From the IMG/VR virus record IMGVR_UViG_3300031918_000076, positions 1 through 37,988 of that record: a stretch of DNA of 37,988 bases; one strand, written 5' to 3'. The stretch is from a virus. The position numbers and the translations under genes are program-made. Under the pieces are notes generated by a model. The model was not told the origin of the DNA and searched no databases. It saw only the letters and a program-made list of their open reading frames with translations. Of the stretch, positions 2,894 through 37,988 are shown one piece after another; the stretch's first letter is position 1, and every line of letters begins with the position of its first letter.

Positions 2894-3130
2894 CTATACC
2901 TCTAGCTGTTGCTGGGGGTCTGTGAAATCAATAGCACCAACAAAATCTGCAATCTCATCATCACTACTGAACGAGACCTCATCGAGGCGTCGCATATTAG
3001 TGGTGATTGTCAGCTTTGAATCAAAGCCAAGCTTTGTGCCGTCATCGGCAAATACCGGCTTATTAACGACGGTGACTTTTACTTGTTTATTTGGTTCGTA
3101 GACTGTTTTGCTTTGCAACGCTGTTTTCAT
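2894..3130 (-). CDS. Hypothetical protein in recombination block
   Basis: 78 aa, ATG 3130 behind GAAAGGAG and overlapping the stop of the exonuclease gene. Beta-rich N-terminus (YEPNKQVKVTVVNKPVFADD) and an acidic C-terminus (SSDDEIADFVGAIDF). No family recognised. Its position between exonuclease and NinB-like genes suggests an accessory recombination role. Confidence 0.65.
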   Translation of the reverse strand: MKTALQSKTVYEPNKQVKVTVVNKPVFADDGTKLGFDSKLTITTNMRRLDEVSFSSDDEIADFVGAIDFTDPQQQLEV

Positions 3131-4032
3131 GCGATGCTCCTTTCATGATTAAATTGTGGTTTGTCAAACAGAGGTGATGGGCGGTAGAATTTGCCTGCGT
3201 CTGTATATTCAGCAAGCATTTTCTCGCGTAGTGCCGCGCCTATGGCGTAGAACTGTCGCTCATCGCAGTCACACTCTATAAGGAATCGTGTCACTGATGG
3301 AACGAGTACATTTTCGATGAAGAAATCATCGCGCTCGATGCGCTTGATAAACACCTGCAAATCCTTGATTTGTCGGCTATCGTACGCAACGAAGTCACAC
3401 CATGCACGGCCAGTAATCCACATCTGCATCTGAACCTGGTCGAAGTATTCCATCGGCAATGCCTCTTCCTTTATCACCTTGTATAGGTGGTTGCGGACAA
3501 TGAGACACTTAATCTCGACGTTTCCAAGCTCGCCAGTGGTTGTGTCAATGACAAGACCGTCTGGCGAAGCTCCGCATAGCAGTGTCGGATGCATCATATA
3601 CGGCGCATCTTTTACGATATTGCCGGTGATGGTTTTATAGGCGTCTCGCGCCATCCATTCATTGACAACACCCCACTGCATAGCTTTATTGACGTATTGA
3701 TCCTCGTCGGCTCTGATTCCAGTTAGACGCTCACCGACGATATCTTTGCGGTAGTTAGCACGTTCTTCGAGTTCAAGTAATGGAACTTGTGCCTGTAGGC
3801 AATACTCATGCGGGTATTCTGTCCGCATACGCTCAATCCATTGCTCACTTTTTTGTACTTTTGCATTAGCATAGTACTCATCAGCAGCAGCCATCTGCTT
3901 TGCCGTGATTTTCTTGGCCCATGCCCTAGTCTTTATTTCACCAGAGCCAGTAACATTTCCAAGACGTGCCTTGTACCATTCTTCACTACGTTGCGGAGCG
4001 TCAACTATTATCGGGTTGAATGTTTCCCGCAT
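3127..4032 (-). CDS. YqaJ-type phage exonuclease
   Basis: 301 aa. It has the YqaJ/lambda-exonuclease hallmarks: QRSEEWYKARLGNVTGSG near the N-terminus, QWGVVNEWMARDAY, GASPDGLV with the catalytic Asp, NVEIKC giving the E-x-K of the PD-(D/E)XK site, and FDQVQMQMWITGRAWCDFV. Such enzymes resect duplex DNA 5' to 3' to make 3' single strands for the partner annealing protein, here encoded just upstream (4001-4717, overlapping). ATG 4032 follows GGGAG. Length is within the family range. Confidence 0.88.
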   Translation of the reverse strand: MRETFNPIIVDAPQRSEEWYKARLGNVTGSGEIKTRAWAKKITAKQMAAADEYYANAKVQKSEQWIERMRTEYPHEYCLQAQVPLLELEERANYRKDIVGERLTGIRADEDQYVNKAMQWGVVNEWMARDAYKTITGNIVKDAPYMMHPTLLCGASPDGLVIDTTTGELGNVEIKCLIVRNHLYKVIKEEALPMEYFDQVQMQMWITGRAWCDFVAYDSRQIKDLQVFIKRIERDDFFIENVLVPSVTRFLIECDCDERQFYAIGAALREKMLAEYTDAGKFYRPSPLFDKPQFNHERSIA

Positions 4033-4717
4033 GTATTAGCTCCCTTCGTTTAACTTGAATCTGGTTTGCAAGCATGAATCTCTCATCTGAGCTAAATGAC
4101 TCAACTACCATATCAAGTTCTTCGTTAGAGGTTGAAGAACGAATCTTATCGACGTTATCAATAACCTCGTCTGCATCAAAGCCATCTTCACCAGAGGACG
4201 CATCGGCCAACAGTTCAGCAACGTCTTCCCAGTTCTCAACTTCGCCAGGCTTAGCCCAATCGGGTAGCAGCGGGCTTTCAGATAGAACGTATATCGGCTC
4301 TCCTCTGCTATTTTTCCCTTGCTGTTTGATAGCTACCCATAGTGTCGGCAGATAGTACAGGTAGTGGCCTACGCCCCACTTTGCAGCGGTTCGTTTGAAT
4401 GCGTCTGATGCACCACCTTTTATTGGTTCAACTTTTGTGTTGCCTGCTGCGTTAGAGCGGGTTATCCATTCGCCATCTATTCTGATGTCTATTTCGCTGA
4501 TGAATCCGCCATCGATAGGGATAAGCCTGTCGCGCCAGTTCTCAACACCACATACATCATCGAGACGCTTCTTAACTTCTCGGCTATCAATATATGCTAG
4601 CGCGATACCTTTGGTCTTGTCTGAGTTCGTAGCACCAATGCGCCACTTGACGAACTTAGGATCGAAAGGGTTCTTGAGCTGCTTCAAAAGCGTCTCTGCA
4701 ACTTGGTTCTTCGCCAT
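4001..4717 (-). CDS. Rad52-family single-strand annealing protein
   Basis: 238 aa from ATG 4717, chosen over an in-frame ATG at 4741 because AAAGGAG lies 8 nt before it. The Rad52/22 core is clear: KNPFDPKFVKWRIGATN, IALAYIDSREVKKRLDDVCG, EWITRSNAAG, KGGASDAFKRTAAKWGVGHY. The last ~70 residues are acidic and variable. It should anneal single strands made by the overlapping YqaJ exonuclease; together they form a Red-like recombination module. Confidence 0.88.
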   Translation of the reverse strand: MAKNQVAETLLKQLKNPFDPKFVKWRIGATNSDKTKGIALAYIDSREVKKRLDDVCGVENWRDRLIPIDGGFISEIDIRIDGEWITRSNAAGNTKVEPIKGGASDAFKRTAAKWGVGHYLYYLPTLWVAIKQQGKNSRGEPIYVLSESPLLPDWAKPGEVENWEDVAELLADASSGEDGFDADEVIDNVDKIRSSTSNEELDMVVESFSSDERFMLANQIQVKRRELIHAGNIQPDNS

Positions 4718-4719
4718 TA

Positions 4720-5052
4720 CTATTTCTCCTTTGCCTGCCATCTTACGACTTTGTGAAATGCGTATGCTCCCATCACAACGGCTGTGCTGCCAGCTATGAT
4801 GTTTGCAATCTGCCCTAGCTGCTCGGGTACTTGAACATTGAATTTGCCAGTGAGTATCACGACAACGCCGGCGGCGATGAACGTGAGAGTTACGATTATT
4901 GGAACGGATACAAGTATTGCTCGGCCAGTAGACTTGAAGAATGCTTTGTAGTCTGATAGAGTTGTGTTCTGAGACTTCTTCGCGGGGGTCTCTATTTCTT
5001 TGGGGGGTAGCGGGGCTACCCTATCGAGCACCTTTTTTAAACTTCGCTTCAT
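4720..5052 (-). CDS. Two-helix membrane protein
   Basis: 110 aa. A basic and proline-rich cytoplasmic start is followed by two hydrophobic segments (AILVSVPIIVTLTFIAAGVV about 45-64 and IANIIAGSTAVVMGAYAF about 83-100). Its stop abuts the Rad52 gene start. Not a recognisable holin family; it might be an early membrane protein such as a superinfection factor. Function unknown. Confidence 0.65.
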   Translation of the reverse strand: MKRSLKKVLDRVAPLPPKEIETPAKKSQNTTLSDYKAFFKSTGRAILVSVPIIVTLTFIAAGVVVILTGKFNVQVPEQLGQIANIIAGSTAVVMGAYAFHKVVRWQAKEK

Positions 5053-5198: not shown

Positions 5199-5303
5199 TT
5201 ATCGGCCTATGAGTTTTCGTAATTTTTCAACCTTGGCTGTGTCACCCTTTCGGGTTGCCTTTTGTATTGAGAGTTCGATTCTCTGGTGTTTTTTGATACC
5301 CAT
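5199..5303 (-). CDS. Small basic protein
   Basis: 34 aa, MGIKKHQRIELSIQKATRKG..., rich in Lys and Arg. It has an excellent AAGGAG site 6 nt from ATG 5303. First gene after the 5304-5738 untranslated stretch, so it heads this part of the early operon. Possibly nucleic-acid binding; function unknown. Confidence 0.6.
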   Translation of the reverse strand: MGIKKHQRIELSIQKATRKGDTAKVEKLRKLIGR

Positions 5304-5528
5304 AATGTCTCCTTACATTTATTATTTTTAGTCAGTCAAAGTGGTTTCCATTGTGCCGAATTTTGTACGCGGAATATCTCGTCCGTCGGTCTGTTAAAGC
5401 TACAATGTACATTCAGCATTAGACACTGTTATTGCTTTCTTGTACCCGTCGTGTCACGGTGTAGCTCGCAGGAGTTGAACAGTTCATCACTGCCCGTACC
5501 CTCAATGGAAATCACTCAAACAGACCAA

Positions 5529-5588
5529 TATGTACACATAGTGACCTTTATTGCCGGGGCCCGTAGCTTAGGGGTGTATGTGCACATA
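5529..5588. promoter_or_regulatory. Paired palindromic operator-like sites
   Basis: TATGTACACATA (5529-5540) and TATGTGCACATA (5577-5588) start 48 bp apart and share the flank xTGACCT on the same side. The second is a perfect 12-bp palindrome. Shared sequence plus flanks in an intergenic stretch is typical of a dimeric regulator binding two operators. The regulator is not identified. Confidence 0.5.
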
Positions 5589-5610
5589 ATGACCTGTTTA
5601 GAACTGAGTT

Positions 5611-5633
5611 CGGGGAGCCTCGCATACTCCCCG
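5611..5633. other. GC-rich hairpin
   Basis: CGGGGAG ... CTCCCCG with a 9-nt loop; 7 perfect pairs. No T-run on either side, so it is not a classical intrinsic terminator. It may be an RNA structure or protein site in the leader. Confidence 0.5.
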
Positions 5634-5738
5634 ATTCATCAGCTCACGCCCGGGACTCTAAGAGCCTTGTCAGCTAAATGTTGCCCCCTACTAGAGCGGG
5701 CTAGCTCAGCATTCCCGAGAGTGAACCGATGAGGTTCA

Positions 5739-6194
5739 CTACCACCAGCAACCCTCACGGGTTCCGCATTTACTTAACCAGAATGACTTCGCTGCACTCC
5801 AAGTGGTGTACCGCCGTATCATGTAGGCGGTGAAGAAAGCGTCCTGACATGCGTAATCCGCACCGCACTTGTCCTTTACTAAACCGTTGCAGTCCTGTCC
5901 TAGTCCGTAACATCCGCCGGGATTCGTCGCATTGGGGTTATTACTACTCTCTTTGAAGTAGATGAACACCTTTGCTTCGTCTTCCGCTGATGGTTTGGGC
6001 GGTTCGGTTTGTATCGGTTGCTCTTGGACTTCCACCTTCTCGGCCGTCGGCTCTGTAACAGTAGCCTTTTGGGTATTAACTGCATGGGATTGTGATTGTG
6101 CATGAACAACTTCTACTTGCCGGTTGCCCGTTGGGTATGCGATTACTGGTATTGCTATCAGCAAGGAACATACCACTTTGTTCAGTATTTTCAT
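5739..6194 (-). CDS. Secreted lysozyme/transglycosylase-like protein
   Basis: 151 aa. An N-terminal signal peptide (KILNKVVCSLLIAIPVIAY, likely cut near VHAQS) is followed by a Pro/Glu/Thr-rich linker (35-70). A C-terminal domain has KESSNNPNATNPGGCYGLGQ (Glu82 as likely catalytic acid), Cys pairs, and an ending CWW. This is the layout of secreted SLT/lysozyme-like proteins of Gram-positive-type and Patescibacteria cells. It is the first gene behind the early promoter rather than in the lysis block, so it may remodel the envelope of the infected or lysogenic cell instead of lysing it. ATG 6194 follows AGGAAAG. Confidence 0.7.
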   Translation of the reverse strand: MKILNKVVCSLLIAIPVIAYPTGNRQVEVVHAQSQSHAVNTQKATVTEPTAEKVEVQEQPIQTEPPKPSAEDEAKVFIYFKESSNNPNATNPGGCYGLGQDCNGLVKDKCGADYACQDAFFTAYMIRRYTTWSAAKSFWLSKCGTREGCWW

Positions 6195-6209
6195 GTTCTT
6201 TCCTAATTG

Positions 6210-6248
6210 TTAAGGTTGAGCTGCCTGCCGTCTTCGTTTCCCGCTCAT
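6210..6248 (-). CDS. Possible leader peptide 2 (12 aa)
   Basis: MSGKRRRQAAQP, ATG 6248 behind AGGACG and overlapping the stop of the preceding 17-codon ORF (ATGA). Very basic. It lies between the antisense target and the lysozyme gene, where translation could affect transcription of the leader. Only context supports it. Confidence 0.25.
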   Translation of the reverse strand: MSGKRRRQAAQP

Positions 6249-6298: not shown

Positions 6299-6351
6299 AC
6301 CTGACAGACCTCACGTCTGTTCGGTGGGAGCATTTAGCCCCCTCATTGGGT

Positions 6352-6374
6352 TACGAATCTTCTACTCGTAGCCC
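6352..6374 (-). repeat. 23-bp inverted repeat, leader (target) copy
   Basis: This 23-bp segment is the exact reverse complement of 8215-8237. Locally it also forms an 11-bp hairpin with its own flank (stem TTGGGTTACGA at 6348-6358, 9-nt loop, partner to 6378, one G-T pair). On the minus strand it falls 12 nt after the terminator T-run in the early leader, upstream of the two tiny ORFs. As RNA it would pair perfectly with the 5' end of the transcript started by the 8271 promoter. Confidence 0.85.
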
Positions 6375-6386
6375 AAAATTGGGTAA

Positions 6387-6408
6387 TAAAAAAACTCCCG
6401 TAGGAGTT
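6387..6408 (-). terminator. Intrinsic terminator in early leader
   Basis: On the minus strand AACTCC-TACG-GGAGTT followed by TTTTT: 6-bp stem, tetraloop and U-tract. It lies between the 6616 promoter and the lysozyme gene, so it would stop most early transcripts near 6387 unless read through or anti-terminated. It also closes the short transcript carrying the tRNA-like element. Confidence 0.85.
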
Positions 6409-6447
6409 AGAAGGTCTTGTATTTTCGACTGATGTAATGCTTAGGCA

Positions 6448-6484
6448 TTACCATGGAGGTGCTCTACCACTGAGCTATCGCGGC
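6448..6484 (-). other. tRNA 5'-half look-alike (possible attP core)
   Basis: Minus-strand sequence reads as positions 1-38 of a tRNA: 7-nt acceptor GCCGCGA, TA, D-arm GCTC-AGTGGTA-GAGC, A, anticodon 5' stem CCTCC and loop ATGGTAA (anticodon GGU, Thr). After the loop the match stops: no 3' anticodon stem, T-arm or acceptor partner follows. The loop end is part of a 7-bp dyad (6434-6451, GTAATGC/GCATTAC). It lies beside the integrase, so it may be the attachment core taken from a host tRNA-Thr gene; phages more often carry the 3' half. It could also be an RNA element of the early leader. Confidence 0.65.
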
Positions 6485-6588
6485 GAACCGGAACAGATAC
6501 AGTGTACAGATACTTCCGTTTGAAAACAAGAGTGCTTTCTAACTTCTGACTTGGTAAGGATTTAATGTGCTGGATGATTCTAAAGACC

Positions 6589-6616
6589 ATTATACTCGGT
6601 TTTCACAGTATGTCAA
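6589..6616 (-). promoter_or_regulatory. Strong sigma70-type promoter for early leader
   Basis: TTGACA (6616-6611), 16-bp spacer, TATAAT (6594-6589): both hexamers are consensus. Start expected near 6582, giving a ~390-nt leader with tRNA-like element, terminator and antisense target before the lysozyme gene. The promoter lies just below the integrase stop codon. Confidence 0.85.
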
Positions 6617-6627
6617 TACCCATTATG

Positions 6628-7467
6628 CTAAATCGAGTGTTTTTCCGCGTACACCTTCTGTAAATCCATGTTCACGACGTGAGTATACATCTGTGTAGTT
6701 TGCAGGCTGGCATGGCCCATCATCTCTTGAACGTAGCGCATATTCGTGTTGTTTCTGAGTAGGTTCGTCGCGAATGAGTGCCGTAGCACATGGGGCGTAA
6801 CATGCTTATCTATATGAGCGTTACGGCAAGCAGCTTGCAGCACGAATTGTATGTTTGTCGGTGTCATGCGGCATAGCCCTTGAGTAGAGATGAATAATGC
6901 CGGGTGGTTATCCTTTCGTGTCGCCAGGTACTTTTCAAGGAGTTGCTTTGTCCTGGTGTCTATGAAGCAGAGACGGGGTTTCTTTCCCTTCCCGACTATA
7001 GTAAAGCAGCCGTTTTGTATCATTCCACGGTCGAGAGAGCATAACTCACTGACACGGATGCCAGAAGCGTAAAGCAACGAGATGATTGCTTTACCCCTGA
7101 TTCTAAATGAAGCGTCTATAAGCTGGGTGACTTCTTCGGGGCTGATGAACTTTGGTACTGACTCAGATCGTTTCGGTACTGGTATAAGCTCAGGGTCAAG
7201 CGCATCTATCCCAATTCTTCTGAGGTAGGTGAGTACAACCCTGAGCTTAATGATGTAGCCCCTGACTGTAATGTCTGAGAGGGTTTTTGACATGTCAGCT
7301 TTCCATAACCGTACATGCTCAAATGTAAGCGAACCAATATCTATGTCACCGAGGAACCTCACAAGGCTATGCAGACTTGAGTTATGTGATTCTTCGGTTT
7401 TAGGGCTTTGATTGGTGAAGACAATAACGTCTTCTCGATACCGCTCAAAGGCCTCTGAGATGAGCAT
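6628..7467 (-). CDS. int: Tyrosine recombinase / phage integrase
   Basis: 279 aa, XerC/D-like. It has an N-terminal SAM-like core-binding domain (about 1-100) and a C-terminal catalytic domain with Arg138 (SGIRVSEL), Lys160 (VGKGKKP), His226-x-x-Arg229-His230 (HVLRHSF), His252 (MMGHASL) and nucleophile Tyr261 (QMYTHV), so it looks active. No arm-binding N-terminal domain is obvious, making it compact like Xer enzymes. ATG 7467 follows AAGGA. The neighbouring tRNA 5' half and inverted repeats are candidate sites. No excisionase is recognised. Confidence 0.93.
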   Translation of the reverse strand: MLISEAFERYREDVIVFTNQSPKTEESHNSSLHSLVRFLGDIDIGSLTFEHVRLWKADMSKTLSDITVRGYIIKLRVVLTYLRRIGIDALDPELIPVPKRSESVPKFISPEEVTQLIDASFRIRGKAIISLLYASGIRVSELCSLDRGMIQNGCFTIVGKGKKPRLCFIDTRTKQLLEKYLATRKDNHPALFISTQGLCRMTPTNIQFVLQAACRNAHIDKHVTPHVLRHSFATNLLRNNTNMRYVQEMMGHASLQTTQMYTHVVNMDLQKVYAEKHSI

Positions 7468-7521
7468 ACAGCAATTCCTTTTACCCTCAGTTAATGTGGT
7501 ATAGGTTTTGATGTTTGCCCG

Positions 7522-7547
7522 AGCACTTCTACTATATACCTAGTGCT
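7522..7547. promoter_or_regulatory. Dyad over possible integrase -10 region
   Basis: AGCACT (7522-7527) and AGTGCT (7542-7547) flank an AT-rich centre whose minus strand contains GGTATATAG, a plausible -10. It lies about 60 bp upstream of the integrase start. No good -35 is seen, so an activated or repressed promoter is possible. Inference from position and symmetry only. Confidence 0.3.
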
Positions 7548-7577
7548 TCGGTTTGTTCGTTGTAGTTTTTCCCACTC

Positions 7578-7614
7578 AAAAAGACCTGATTTTTTCTAAC
7601 CCCTGGGGTACAGG
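7578..7614 (-). terminator. Weak terminator candidate after ncRNA
   Basis: Minus strand CCTG ... CAGG encloses an inner ACC/GGT pairing and is followed by TCTTTTT. The stem is short and the loop long, so termination may be partial, which would let some transcripts continue into the integrase. Confidence 0.3.
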
Positions 7615-7850
7615 CTACCTTACGTTTGCACTGGCTCTATAATGAATTCTATTTCATTACCGAATCTGTGCTAAATGTTGGGTTGCCTTGAAGCTAAATC
7701 ATAAAAGATTCAGAACAAGCAACCGAATTGTTAAGTAACAAGGGGTGCGAACTATTTGTTCCCATTCTAACTTGAACCTATTTGTTAGCTGACGCATTAC
7801 GTCACCAGTCCGTATAACGGCCATACGGCTAGCCTCGTATATCCTTGTGG

Positions 7851-8008
7851 CCTTAACAAGTAAACAACTGAGCTCTACACGGTTCATAGACAAATGTCAT
7901 AACTATTCCCGTTCCACGTCTTAATTACCTATATGCGAAAAGGAAACACAAAGCATACCGCATATCGGAGGGCTGCATGCATAGAGCTCAAATATCTACT
8001 TGTTAAGG
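7851..8008. repeat. Imperfect 27-bp inverted repeat
   Basis: Arm 1 (7851-7877) is CCTTAACAAGTA, 6 nt, TGAGCTCTA. Arm 2 (7982-8008) is TAGAGCTCA, 6 nt, TACTTGTTAAGG. 21 of 27 positions pair and the 6-nt spacers coincide. In RNA the arms would close a ~104-nt domain containing further hairpins; in DNA they could be integrase or initiator arm sites. Confidence 0.75.
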
Positions 8009-8214
8009 TGTTCCAGGTTCTTTTACGCGCCCTGGTGGGTAGAATATAACCCTGCCTACGCGGTTTCCGCCCACAACCGTAGTTGTGGACAGAAAGGCCC
8101 CCGCAAAAAAGAGATTCAAAGGTTTCCAGCACATTAAACCTAGTATTACGAGGGCCTTACTATACCTAACGAGATGCCAGATATGGAAATAAGCCCTTTA
8201 TGTACGATGTACAT

Positions 8215-8237
8215 GGGCTACGAGTAGAAGATTCGTA
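8215..8237 (-). repeat. 23-bp inverted repeat, RNA 5'-end copy
   Basis: Exact reverse complement of 6352-6374. Its upper end coincides with the predicted start (about 8236) of the transcript from the 8271-8243 promoter, so the RNA would begin with this segment. It also takes part in a local 7-bp hairpin ACGAGTA/TACTCGT (8220-8242). Confidence 0.85.
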
Positions 8238-8242
8238 CTCGT

Positions 8243-8271
8243 ATAGTACTCGCACATCGGTAGATTGTCAA
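8243..8271 (-). promoter_or_regulatory. Strong sigma70-type promoter for ncRNA/integrase module
   Basis: TTGACA (8271-8266), exactly 17 bp, TACTAT (8248-8243). Start predicted at 8236 plus or minus 2. It sits just after the last late gene and reads toward the noncoding region and integrase. Confidence 0.8.
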
Positions 8272-26588: not shown

Positions 26589-26921
26589 TCAATTTTCAGT
26601 TTCATATTCATCCTCTGCCTTTGGTTCATCCATCACAAGCGGATGATTCTCCCTGTAGAACTGACGCAGCTCTAGGGTCTTGTGTAAATTACCCTCTGCA
26701 AGCTTAAAGCGAATCTGTCGGAATATAATGCTAATCCACCCTTGCGAGAGTCCGAGTGCACAGCCTATTTCCTCCTGTGACCAGCCTGCAATCCTGAGAT
26801 CAATGATAATCTGCTCACGGAAATCTAGCTGGTCATACGTCTCTTCCGCAGCGTCAAAGCCGAGTACCTTCTGCAGGGGAGTTGATTTAGTTGTGAACGA
26901 CATTGCTACCACCATGTTCAT
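26589..26921 (-). CDS. Sigma-region-4-like HTH protein
   Basis: 110 aa. LDFREQIIIDLRIAGWSQEE followed by IGCALGLSQGWISIIFRQIR is a clear helix-turn-helix of the sigma70 region 4/TrfA type. The C-terminus is acidic. It could be a late transcription activator or the DNA-binding half of the small terminase, since it sits two genes before TerL. ATG 26921 (GGGGAG upstream) overlaps the previous gene by 35 nt; an internal ATG at 26903 is possible. Confidence 0.65.
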   Translation of the reverse strand: MNMVVAMSFTTKSTPLQKVLGFDAAEETYDQLDFREQIIIDLRIAGWSQEEIGCALGLSQGWISIIFRQIRFKLAEGNLHKTLELRQFYRENHPLVMDEPKAEDEYETEN

Positions 26922-31747: not shown

Positions 31748-33789
<2,042 letters not shown>

Positions 33790-33793
<4 letters not shown>

Positions 33794-37693: not shown

Positions 37694-37851
37694 TTACCAG
37701 CCTTTCGACGTGCAGGGAGTCCCCATTTCGTCCGTAGAGTCTTCTCCAGCAATGCCGGGTTGTACTCCTTGAGGGCTTGTACTTTTTTTAGCATGACGTT
37801 GATTCTATTGACGTTGTTAGTATCATGCTCATTCAAGAGGTATGATTTCAT
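37690..37851 (-). CDS. Small basic hypothetical protein
   Basis: 53 aa, MKSYLLNEHDTNNVNRINVM..., basic C-terminus (LRTKWGLPARRKAGK). ATG 37851 follows AAAGG. Complete here; its 5' part is duplicated at 1-61 by the terminal overlap. ATGA-coupled to the next gene. Confidence 0.65.
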   Translation of the reverse strand: MKSYLLNEHDTNNVNRINVMLKKVQALKEYNPALLEKTLRTKWGLPARRKAGK

Positions 37852-37988
37852 TTGGCTGCCTTTCGTCTTATTCGCATTACATGGGCCCGAAGTAGGTCTA
37901 GGGGCTTTTCATTTGACGGTTCGTAGTAGAGGGGCCATCTAAGGGGCATATTATCTCCAGTCCTCAGGCTTTATTATATTTCTCGGTG
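37791..37988. repeat. Terminal redundancy, right copy
   Basis: Second copy of bases 1-198 with one substitution at 37918. See the left copy. Confidence 0.93.

Follow-up and report, generated by a model that had tools for sequence, protein, structure and literature searches.

A likely trans-acting antisense-RNA switch beside the integrase gene of temperate phages inferred to infect Ca. Saccharibacteria

In the 37,988-nt viral record IMGVR_UViG_3300031918_000076 (positions 1 to 37,988, analysed in full and hereafter called the window), a short segment upstream of the tyrosine integrase gene (int) reappears downstream of that gene as its exact reverse complement, in such a way that one copy would open a small RNA and the other would lie in the leader of the early operon. 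The question raised by this locus is whether the two predicted RNAs pair in trans and, if they do, whether the pairing acts as a switch for lysogeny and superinfection immunity.

The window is inferred, from sequence alone, to be a temperate phage of Ca. Saccharibacteria, on the basis that its attachment site (attP) is the 5' half of a tRNA-Thr(GGT) gene and is found exactly in four genomes. Saccharibacteria are tiny parasitic bacteria. The 37-mer in question (6484-6448) occurred in only four of the 84,980 species genomes scanned, each time within a complete tRNA-Thr(GGT), and three of these four genomes are named Ca. Saccharibacteria. Recognisable genes on the minus strand encode Erf, a YqaJ exonuclease, NinB, a terminase, a GroEL-like protein and the integrase. 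The record carries a 198-bp terminal repeat with one mismatch (1-198 / 37791-37988), and is therefore probably a complete genome, either circularly closed or terminally redundant. Beside glycosyltransferase-like genes lie what we take to be, from a reading of the ORFs, GroEL-like and adjoining GroES-like genes (31935-33793).

The inverted repeat and its setting in the window

The two copies of the repeat agree over 24 nt, one more than the 23 nt of the original prediction (8215-8237 / 6352-6374), and constitute the longest inverted repeat of the whole window, in which no other of at least 18 nt is present. The chance expectation for such 24-mers is ~3e-6 (by arithmetic), and when the sequences were shuffled 60 times, the stretches upstream and downstream of int shared complements of no more than 13 nt, with a mean of 10 nt for the longest one. 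The sequence is found at only two sites in the window, the next best copy having 8 mismatches.

Most of what had been predicted about the surroundings of the repeat also held (Table 1). The proposed near-consensus minus-strand promoter (8271-8243) matches at 10/12 positions, and the repeat starts 5-6 nt past its -10 hexamer, so that the claimed RNA start at about 8236, with the RNA beginning in the repeat, stands as to position, the promoter itself being predicted only. The consensus promoter claimed for the early leader (6616-6589) matches at 12/12, and the intrinsic terminator said to precede the target is in place (6408-6393). Two points needed correction: the transcript predicted to start at ~6582 first crosses the 5' half of tRNA-Thr(GGT), and the target was said to be followed by two coupled tiny ORFs, where the first substantial ORF is the 151-aa gene (5739-6194). 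All promoters, terminators and boxA elements reported here are consensus matches, and there are no RNA or phenotype data.

Table 1. Positions of the features of the predicted switch and of neighbouring genes in the window
Feature	Positions	Strand	Remarks
Promoter of the antisense RNA (predicted)	8243..8271	-	TTGACA-17-TACTAT, sigma70-like
Predicted antisense sRNA	8185..8237	-	~53 nt; ends in hairpin 8219-8192 with weak U tract
Antisense segment	8214..8237	-	first 24 nt of the sRNA
Strongly folded non-coding region from sRNA to int	7468..8184	-	fold z=-7.5 including the sRNA
Tyrosine integrase (int)	6628..7467	-	Pfam PF00589 E=6e-36; PHROG integrase
Early promoter P_E (predicted)	6589..6616	-	TTGACA-16-TATAAT
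attP	6448..6484	-	first 37 nt of tRNA-Thr(GGT)
Intrinsic terminator T_E (predicted)	6386..6408	-	with U run; between attP and target
Target stem-loop P1 in the early leader	6346..6376	-	sRNA 5' end exactly complementary to 6352-6375
boxA-like motif TTAACAATT of the early leader	6205..6213	-	
First early gene, 151 aa	5739..6194	-	weak transglycosylase match
Early gene, Erf/Rad52 annealing protein	4001..4741	-	
Early gene, YqaJ/RecE-like exonuclease	3127..4032	-	

Two further features of this region are recorded as side observations. A second exact complementarity, of 14 nt, links the 5' end of the early transcript (6561-6574) with a hairpin loop (8125-8138) situated ~100 nt downstream of the sRNA start (~0.001 such matches expected between the two stretches); it has no equivalent in the circular phage c8 described below. 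The early operon also contains a 540-nt non-coding gap (5199-5738) with two similar segments, TATGTACACATAGTGACCT and TATGTGCACATAATGACCT, which could possibly serve as operators for a protein regulator.

Concerted change of the two copies among relatives

An integrase profile search yielded ~34 related metagenomic contigs, 25 of which display complementarity of the same geometry, and an integrase search of Saccharibacteria genomes led to c8 (G287:C8), a 43-kb circular phage; together with one prophage (G230:C7), 27 further sequences carry the device. In the 25 contigs the sRNA copy is mostly located 500-640 nt upstream of int (the distance being 700 nt in L169 and 770 nt in the window), and the partner site 0.2-0.9 kb after it. 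A pair of the expected layout was not found in five relatives with enough flanking sequence (L166, L167/L168, L173, L184 and L186), for which a c8-like layout is not excluded. The module was likewise not found with more distant integrases (L200-L242), nor the same pair in two prophages (G264 and G326). Scans of viral contigs for exact occurrences of the 24-mer and of two conserved motifs gave no match, a query with the integrase alone returned nothing, and a terminase search returned structural relatives, none of them with the module. A 20-nt match in G005/G006 was set aside, as it looked like chance.

The complementary stretch corresponds to the first ~22-30 nt of the RNA (perfect over 25 nt in L198 and L193), and the paired sequences vary between phages yet change together. 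Both-sided, in-register substitutions account for 7 of 8 changes between L170 and L178 and for 10 of 10 between L175 and L178, while a single inserted base sets L194 and L196 apart, in both copies alike. In a 27x27 duplex matrix, own pairs had a mean of -41.5 kcal/mol versus -16.5 kcal/mol for cross pairs, and the own partner was the best one in 26 of the 27 rows. As the relatives are partly clustered by shared ancestry, the number of independent pairings is roughly ten or more, and not 27. The original prediction had called for such a comparison of compensatory changes, and had named as refuting evidence relatives that keep one copy without its complement; the opposite was seen, since the 25 contigs, the circular phage and the prophage keep both copies, and these turn over in concert. 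The complementarity and its concerted evolution are thereby shown, and we infer that RNA-RNA pairing, together with selection for it, is established as far as sequence comparison allows.

The mismatches within the duplexes are less clear. A comparison of G.U with C.A mismatches, which bears on RNA versus DNA, gave no clear separation of RNA pairing from DNA repeats. Moreover, an A.C mismatch recurs at duplex position 12-13 (L170, L171, L175, L178, L181, L182, L183, L185, L190, L197 and L199), and another A.C mismatch lies mid-duplex in L169. The recurrent mismatch, which interrupts duplexes that are nearly complete in other respects, counts against the switch reading, and is one for which we offer no explanation.

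The placement of the paired segments relative to promoters, terminators, att and boxA is shown as well, within the limits of consensus matching. On the side of the sRNA, whose gene is directly upstream of int and in the same direction, the pairing segment begins 3-12 nt past a sigma70-like -10 element in all but one of the 27 duplexes (the case being unclear in L188). A terminator-like hairpin with a U run follows the pairing segment in 27/28 phages (by a liberal terminator scan), the 5' arm of this hairpin being usually part of the antisense segment, and the predicted length of the sRNA is ~45-60 nt in most phages. Most relatives have a good terminator between the sRNA and int; given the weak U tract of its terminator, the window sRNA may possibly run on into int. 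No match to Rfam families (such as C4 or isrK) above the cut-off was obtained in the window, in c8 or in seven relatives, apart from a tRNA.

On the side of the early operon, the order after int is P_E, the tRNA part (where seen), a terminator and then, directly, P1, with attP situated between P_E and the target. A P_E of at least 9/12 follows int in 25/26 phages, and an intrinsic terminator precedes the target in 25/26 (again by a liberal scan). P1 and the next hairpin, P2, covary in relatives (6 pairs with both-sided changes versus 0/500 shuffles). Furthermore, the motif TTAACAATT is present at a match of at least 8/9 in 24/27 leaders (5% expected per shuffled leader), 40-80 nt past the target in most leaders and 162 nt past it in the window, and is also encountered 72 nt upstream of a Saccharibacteria host 16S gene (L246). 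We infer from its sequence that it resembles boxA, the consensus of which in gamma-proteobacteria is GYTCTTTAANA (PMC5725501).

The circular phage and the prophage add two arrangements of these parts. The structural genes of c8 stand in the same order as in the window, and the sequence preceding its int is related. Its transcript directions are rearranged: the promoters are divergent, and attP, formed by the 3' half of tRNA-Thr(GGT), flanks the sRNA-int block on the opposite side. The int-side RNA and the segment that immediately follows the att-tRNA terminator are nevertheless complementary over 27 nt (one mismatch, one G.U). As DNA, the two copies form direct repeats in c8 and inverted ones in the window; what is kept is the RNA relation alone. 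The layout of the prophage is shown by its sequence: the host tRNA-Thr(GGT), a terminator and the target are found at 57.3 kb and are followed by the prophage body, with the sRNA and int at 88 kb and P_E with a second att core at 89.5 kb. Integration therefore parts P_E from the early operon, and the target then stands behind the host tRNA gene. From this arrangement of sequences we infer that P_E would drive the early leader in the circular phage and the rebuilt host tRNA-Thr after integration.

The region between the sRNA and int differs among the phages. Within 7480-8185, the folded stretch of the window is partly conserved in c8, L169, L184 and L201 (window motif 7782-7839), its counterpart in c8 (L143) spanning 414-713 (z=-6.2 including the sRNA), and contains a six-pair stem with two compensatory changes; it has no Rfam match. 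A large structured non-coding RNA (ROOL/GOLLD-like), suggested by the folding of the 757 nt from 8236 at z=-7.5, was considered and rejected: in most relatives the RNA stops at ~50 nt and what follows encodes a protein of ~110 aa, so that a large RNA could at most exist in the subgroup of the window. Most of the contigs L170-L199 have such a protein (~100-130 aa) between the sRNA and int, with a C-terminal four-helix region (by a four-helix model) and no Pfam or PDB match; it is a possible candidate for a second regulator.

The proposed switch and rival readings

We consider it likely (with a probability of roughly 0.75) that the device is a trans-acting antisense-RNA switch for lysogeny and immunity with many specificity groups, its transcription, repression and immunity being inferred. 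According to this model, the promoter upstream of int would produce a short RNA with an unpaired 5' end, which would recognise the P1 loop just past the terminator and then zip into a duplex of 22-30 bp. In a lysogen, the pairing would silence read-through into the early operon, and during superinfection an incoming homoimmune phage would have its copy of that leader silenced too. Integration would remove P_E from the operon and place the leader behind the host tRNA gene, and we argue that control acts on the RNA because the host tRNA promoter is presumably not repressible by the phage. As for the route of silencing, we prefer the one in which the duplex would disrupt the P1/P2/boxA leader that lets the polymerase cross, with Rho-dependent termination as the outcome; the main alternative is that RNase III would cut the duplex. 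Simple attenuation at the intrinsic terminator is unlikely, since the target follows the terminator and does not precede it. That the sRNA silences the early operon at all is inferred, by analogy with P4 and from the logic of the tRNA promoter.

To this extent the RNA-based lysogeny or superinfection switch through trans pairing, as originally predicted, is supported, with RNA production and repression inferred; of the precedent invoked for it (P4-like early termination), the likeness is kept, while termination by pairing is here only an inference. It had also been claimed that no protein repressor is evident. The scanned proteins yielded no CI-like repressor and only weak HTH-like (2159-2428) and sigma-r4-like (26589-26921) matches; many small ORFs remain unidentified, and a protein repressor is not excluded.

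According to the first rival reading, the repeats work as DNA, being bound by an unseen repressor (as operators) or by the integrase (as arm sites), and the RNA complementarity is incidental. In its favour, the repeat contains a short dyad (TACGA-N9-TCGTA), copy 1 overlaps the start site, and small proteins of unknown function exist, including the ~110-aa one before int in most relatives. Against it, the entire segment is kept, loop included, and not the dyad arms alone; the window has just the two sites; one edge of the repeat keeps step with the -10 element in almost all phages; copy 1 is 1.7 kb from att, across int, and runs into the terminator hairpin; and the orientation in c8 follows the direction of the transcript. 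We regard this reading as unlikely.

Similarly improbable is a second reading, in which the pairing is real and serves another decision, for example the titration by the early leader of the sRNA or of the 5' end of the int mRNA, and hence the control of integration. The position of the sRNA gene immediately before int, in the same direction, and the weak terminator of the window sRNA would agree with it; on the other hand, a good terminator parts the sRNA from int in most relatives, and the sRNA consistently matches the leader of the operon beyond att.

A third reading, in which the repeats serve to invert the int segment of the DNA, draws on their inverted orientation and on their flanking of int in most phages, and is very improbable in view of the direct repeats of c8, the imperfect identity of the copies in many phages and their ties to promoters and terminators. 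Finally, an IscB- or bridge-RNA-like role, in which the 5' end of the RNA would guide a nuclease or recombinase, is suggested by a variable 5' segment (20-27 nt) that precedes a conserved structured RNA in the group of the window. It can be practically ruled out, as the RNA ends after ~50 nt in most relatives, no such nuclease was seen among the scanned proteins, and nothing but the leader of the phage itself offers a close copy of the target.

Beyond the preferred switch reading, a bolder version can be formulated, which we hold as apt to fail as to be right: a lysogeny and superinfection system made of RNA only, without a protein repressor, and widespread among the temperate Saccharibacteria phages. 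Many immunity groups would then be set by a short antisense RNA, and insertion into a tRNA gene would itself belong to the switch, by swapping the promoter before an RNA-controlled, boxA-bearing early leader.

Significance and comparison with known systems

Phage immunity based on RNA has been described for a few enterobacterial elements (P4, P1/P7 and N15). In the present case it appears to be common to a clade of temperate Saccharibacteria phages, in a host group whose phage biology is barely studied; the literature searched, the coverage of which is incomplete, yielded no publication that deals with antisense RNAs of such phages. Under the switch reading, specificity would be readable from ~25 bases, making immunity groups predictable from sequence, and the device would illustrate a way for a phage to control an operon that integration has placed behind a host tRNA promoter.

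The closest likeness is to the CI RNA of satellite phage P4 (and of phiR73), a small untranslated RNA that pairs with the leader of the early/replication operon and silences the lysogen, no repressor protein being involved (PMC4825925; PMC7567579), in P4 by stopping transcription of the replication operon (PMC4825925); the silencing is, in our case, inferred. Whereas the P4 RNA is processed from the very untranslated leader that it controls, the RNA described here is predicted to have a separate promoter and, mostly, a terminator of its own near int; P4 CI RNA pairs with the flanking seqA and seqC, in contrast to the single close target copy of the window; and the leader here carries a terminator, a covarying pair of hairpins and a boxA-like motif. 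The C4 RNA of P1/P7 and the antirepressor RNA of N15 are likewise phage RNAs complementary to a gene leader (PMC7567579). These RNAs control an antirepressor, that is, an anti-immunity gene, unlike the RNA of the present phages, the predicted target of which is the head of the early operon. We infer that the device works like the P4 CI and P1 C4 RNAs and belongs to neither, as it fails two features that define the former and has no Rfam match.

With regard to integration, the device resembles the integration-dependent immunity of mycobacteriophage BPs, in which attP also lies inside the immunity circuit and integration changes regulation (PMC4557955); in BPs it is the repressor protein that is altered (attP being in the repressor gene), whereas here the promoter is swapped before an RNA-controlled leader. 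In tRNA-dependent lysogeny, attP is in a tRNA gene that is not reconstructed (PMC10865867), in contrast to the tRNA half restored here. Lastly, in the antisense systems of plasmids (ColE1 RNAI/RNAII, R1 CopA/CopT and pT181), an unstructured segment meets a loop and a full duplex with the leader RNA follows, as proposed for the sRNA and P1; the plasmid RNAs are encoded in cis, on the strand opposite to their targets, whereas the two partners of the phage switch are separate loci that must co-evolve.
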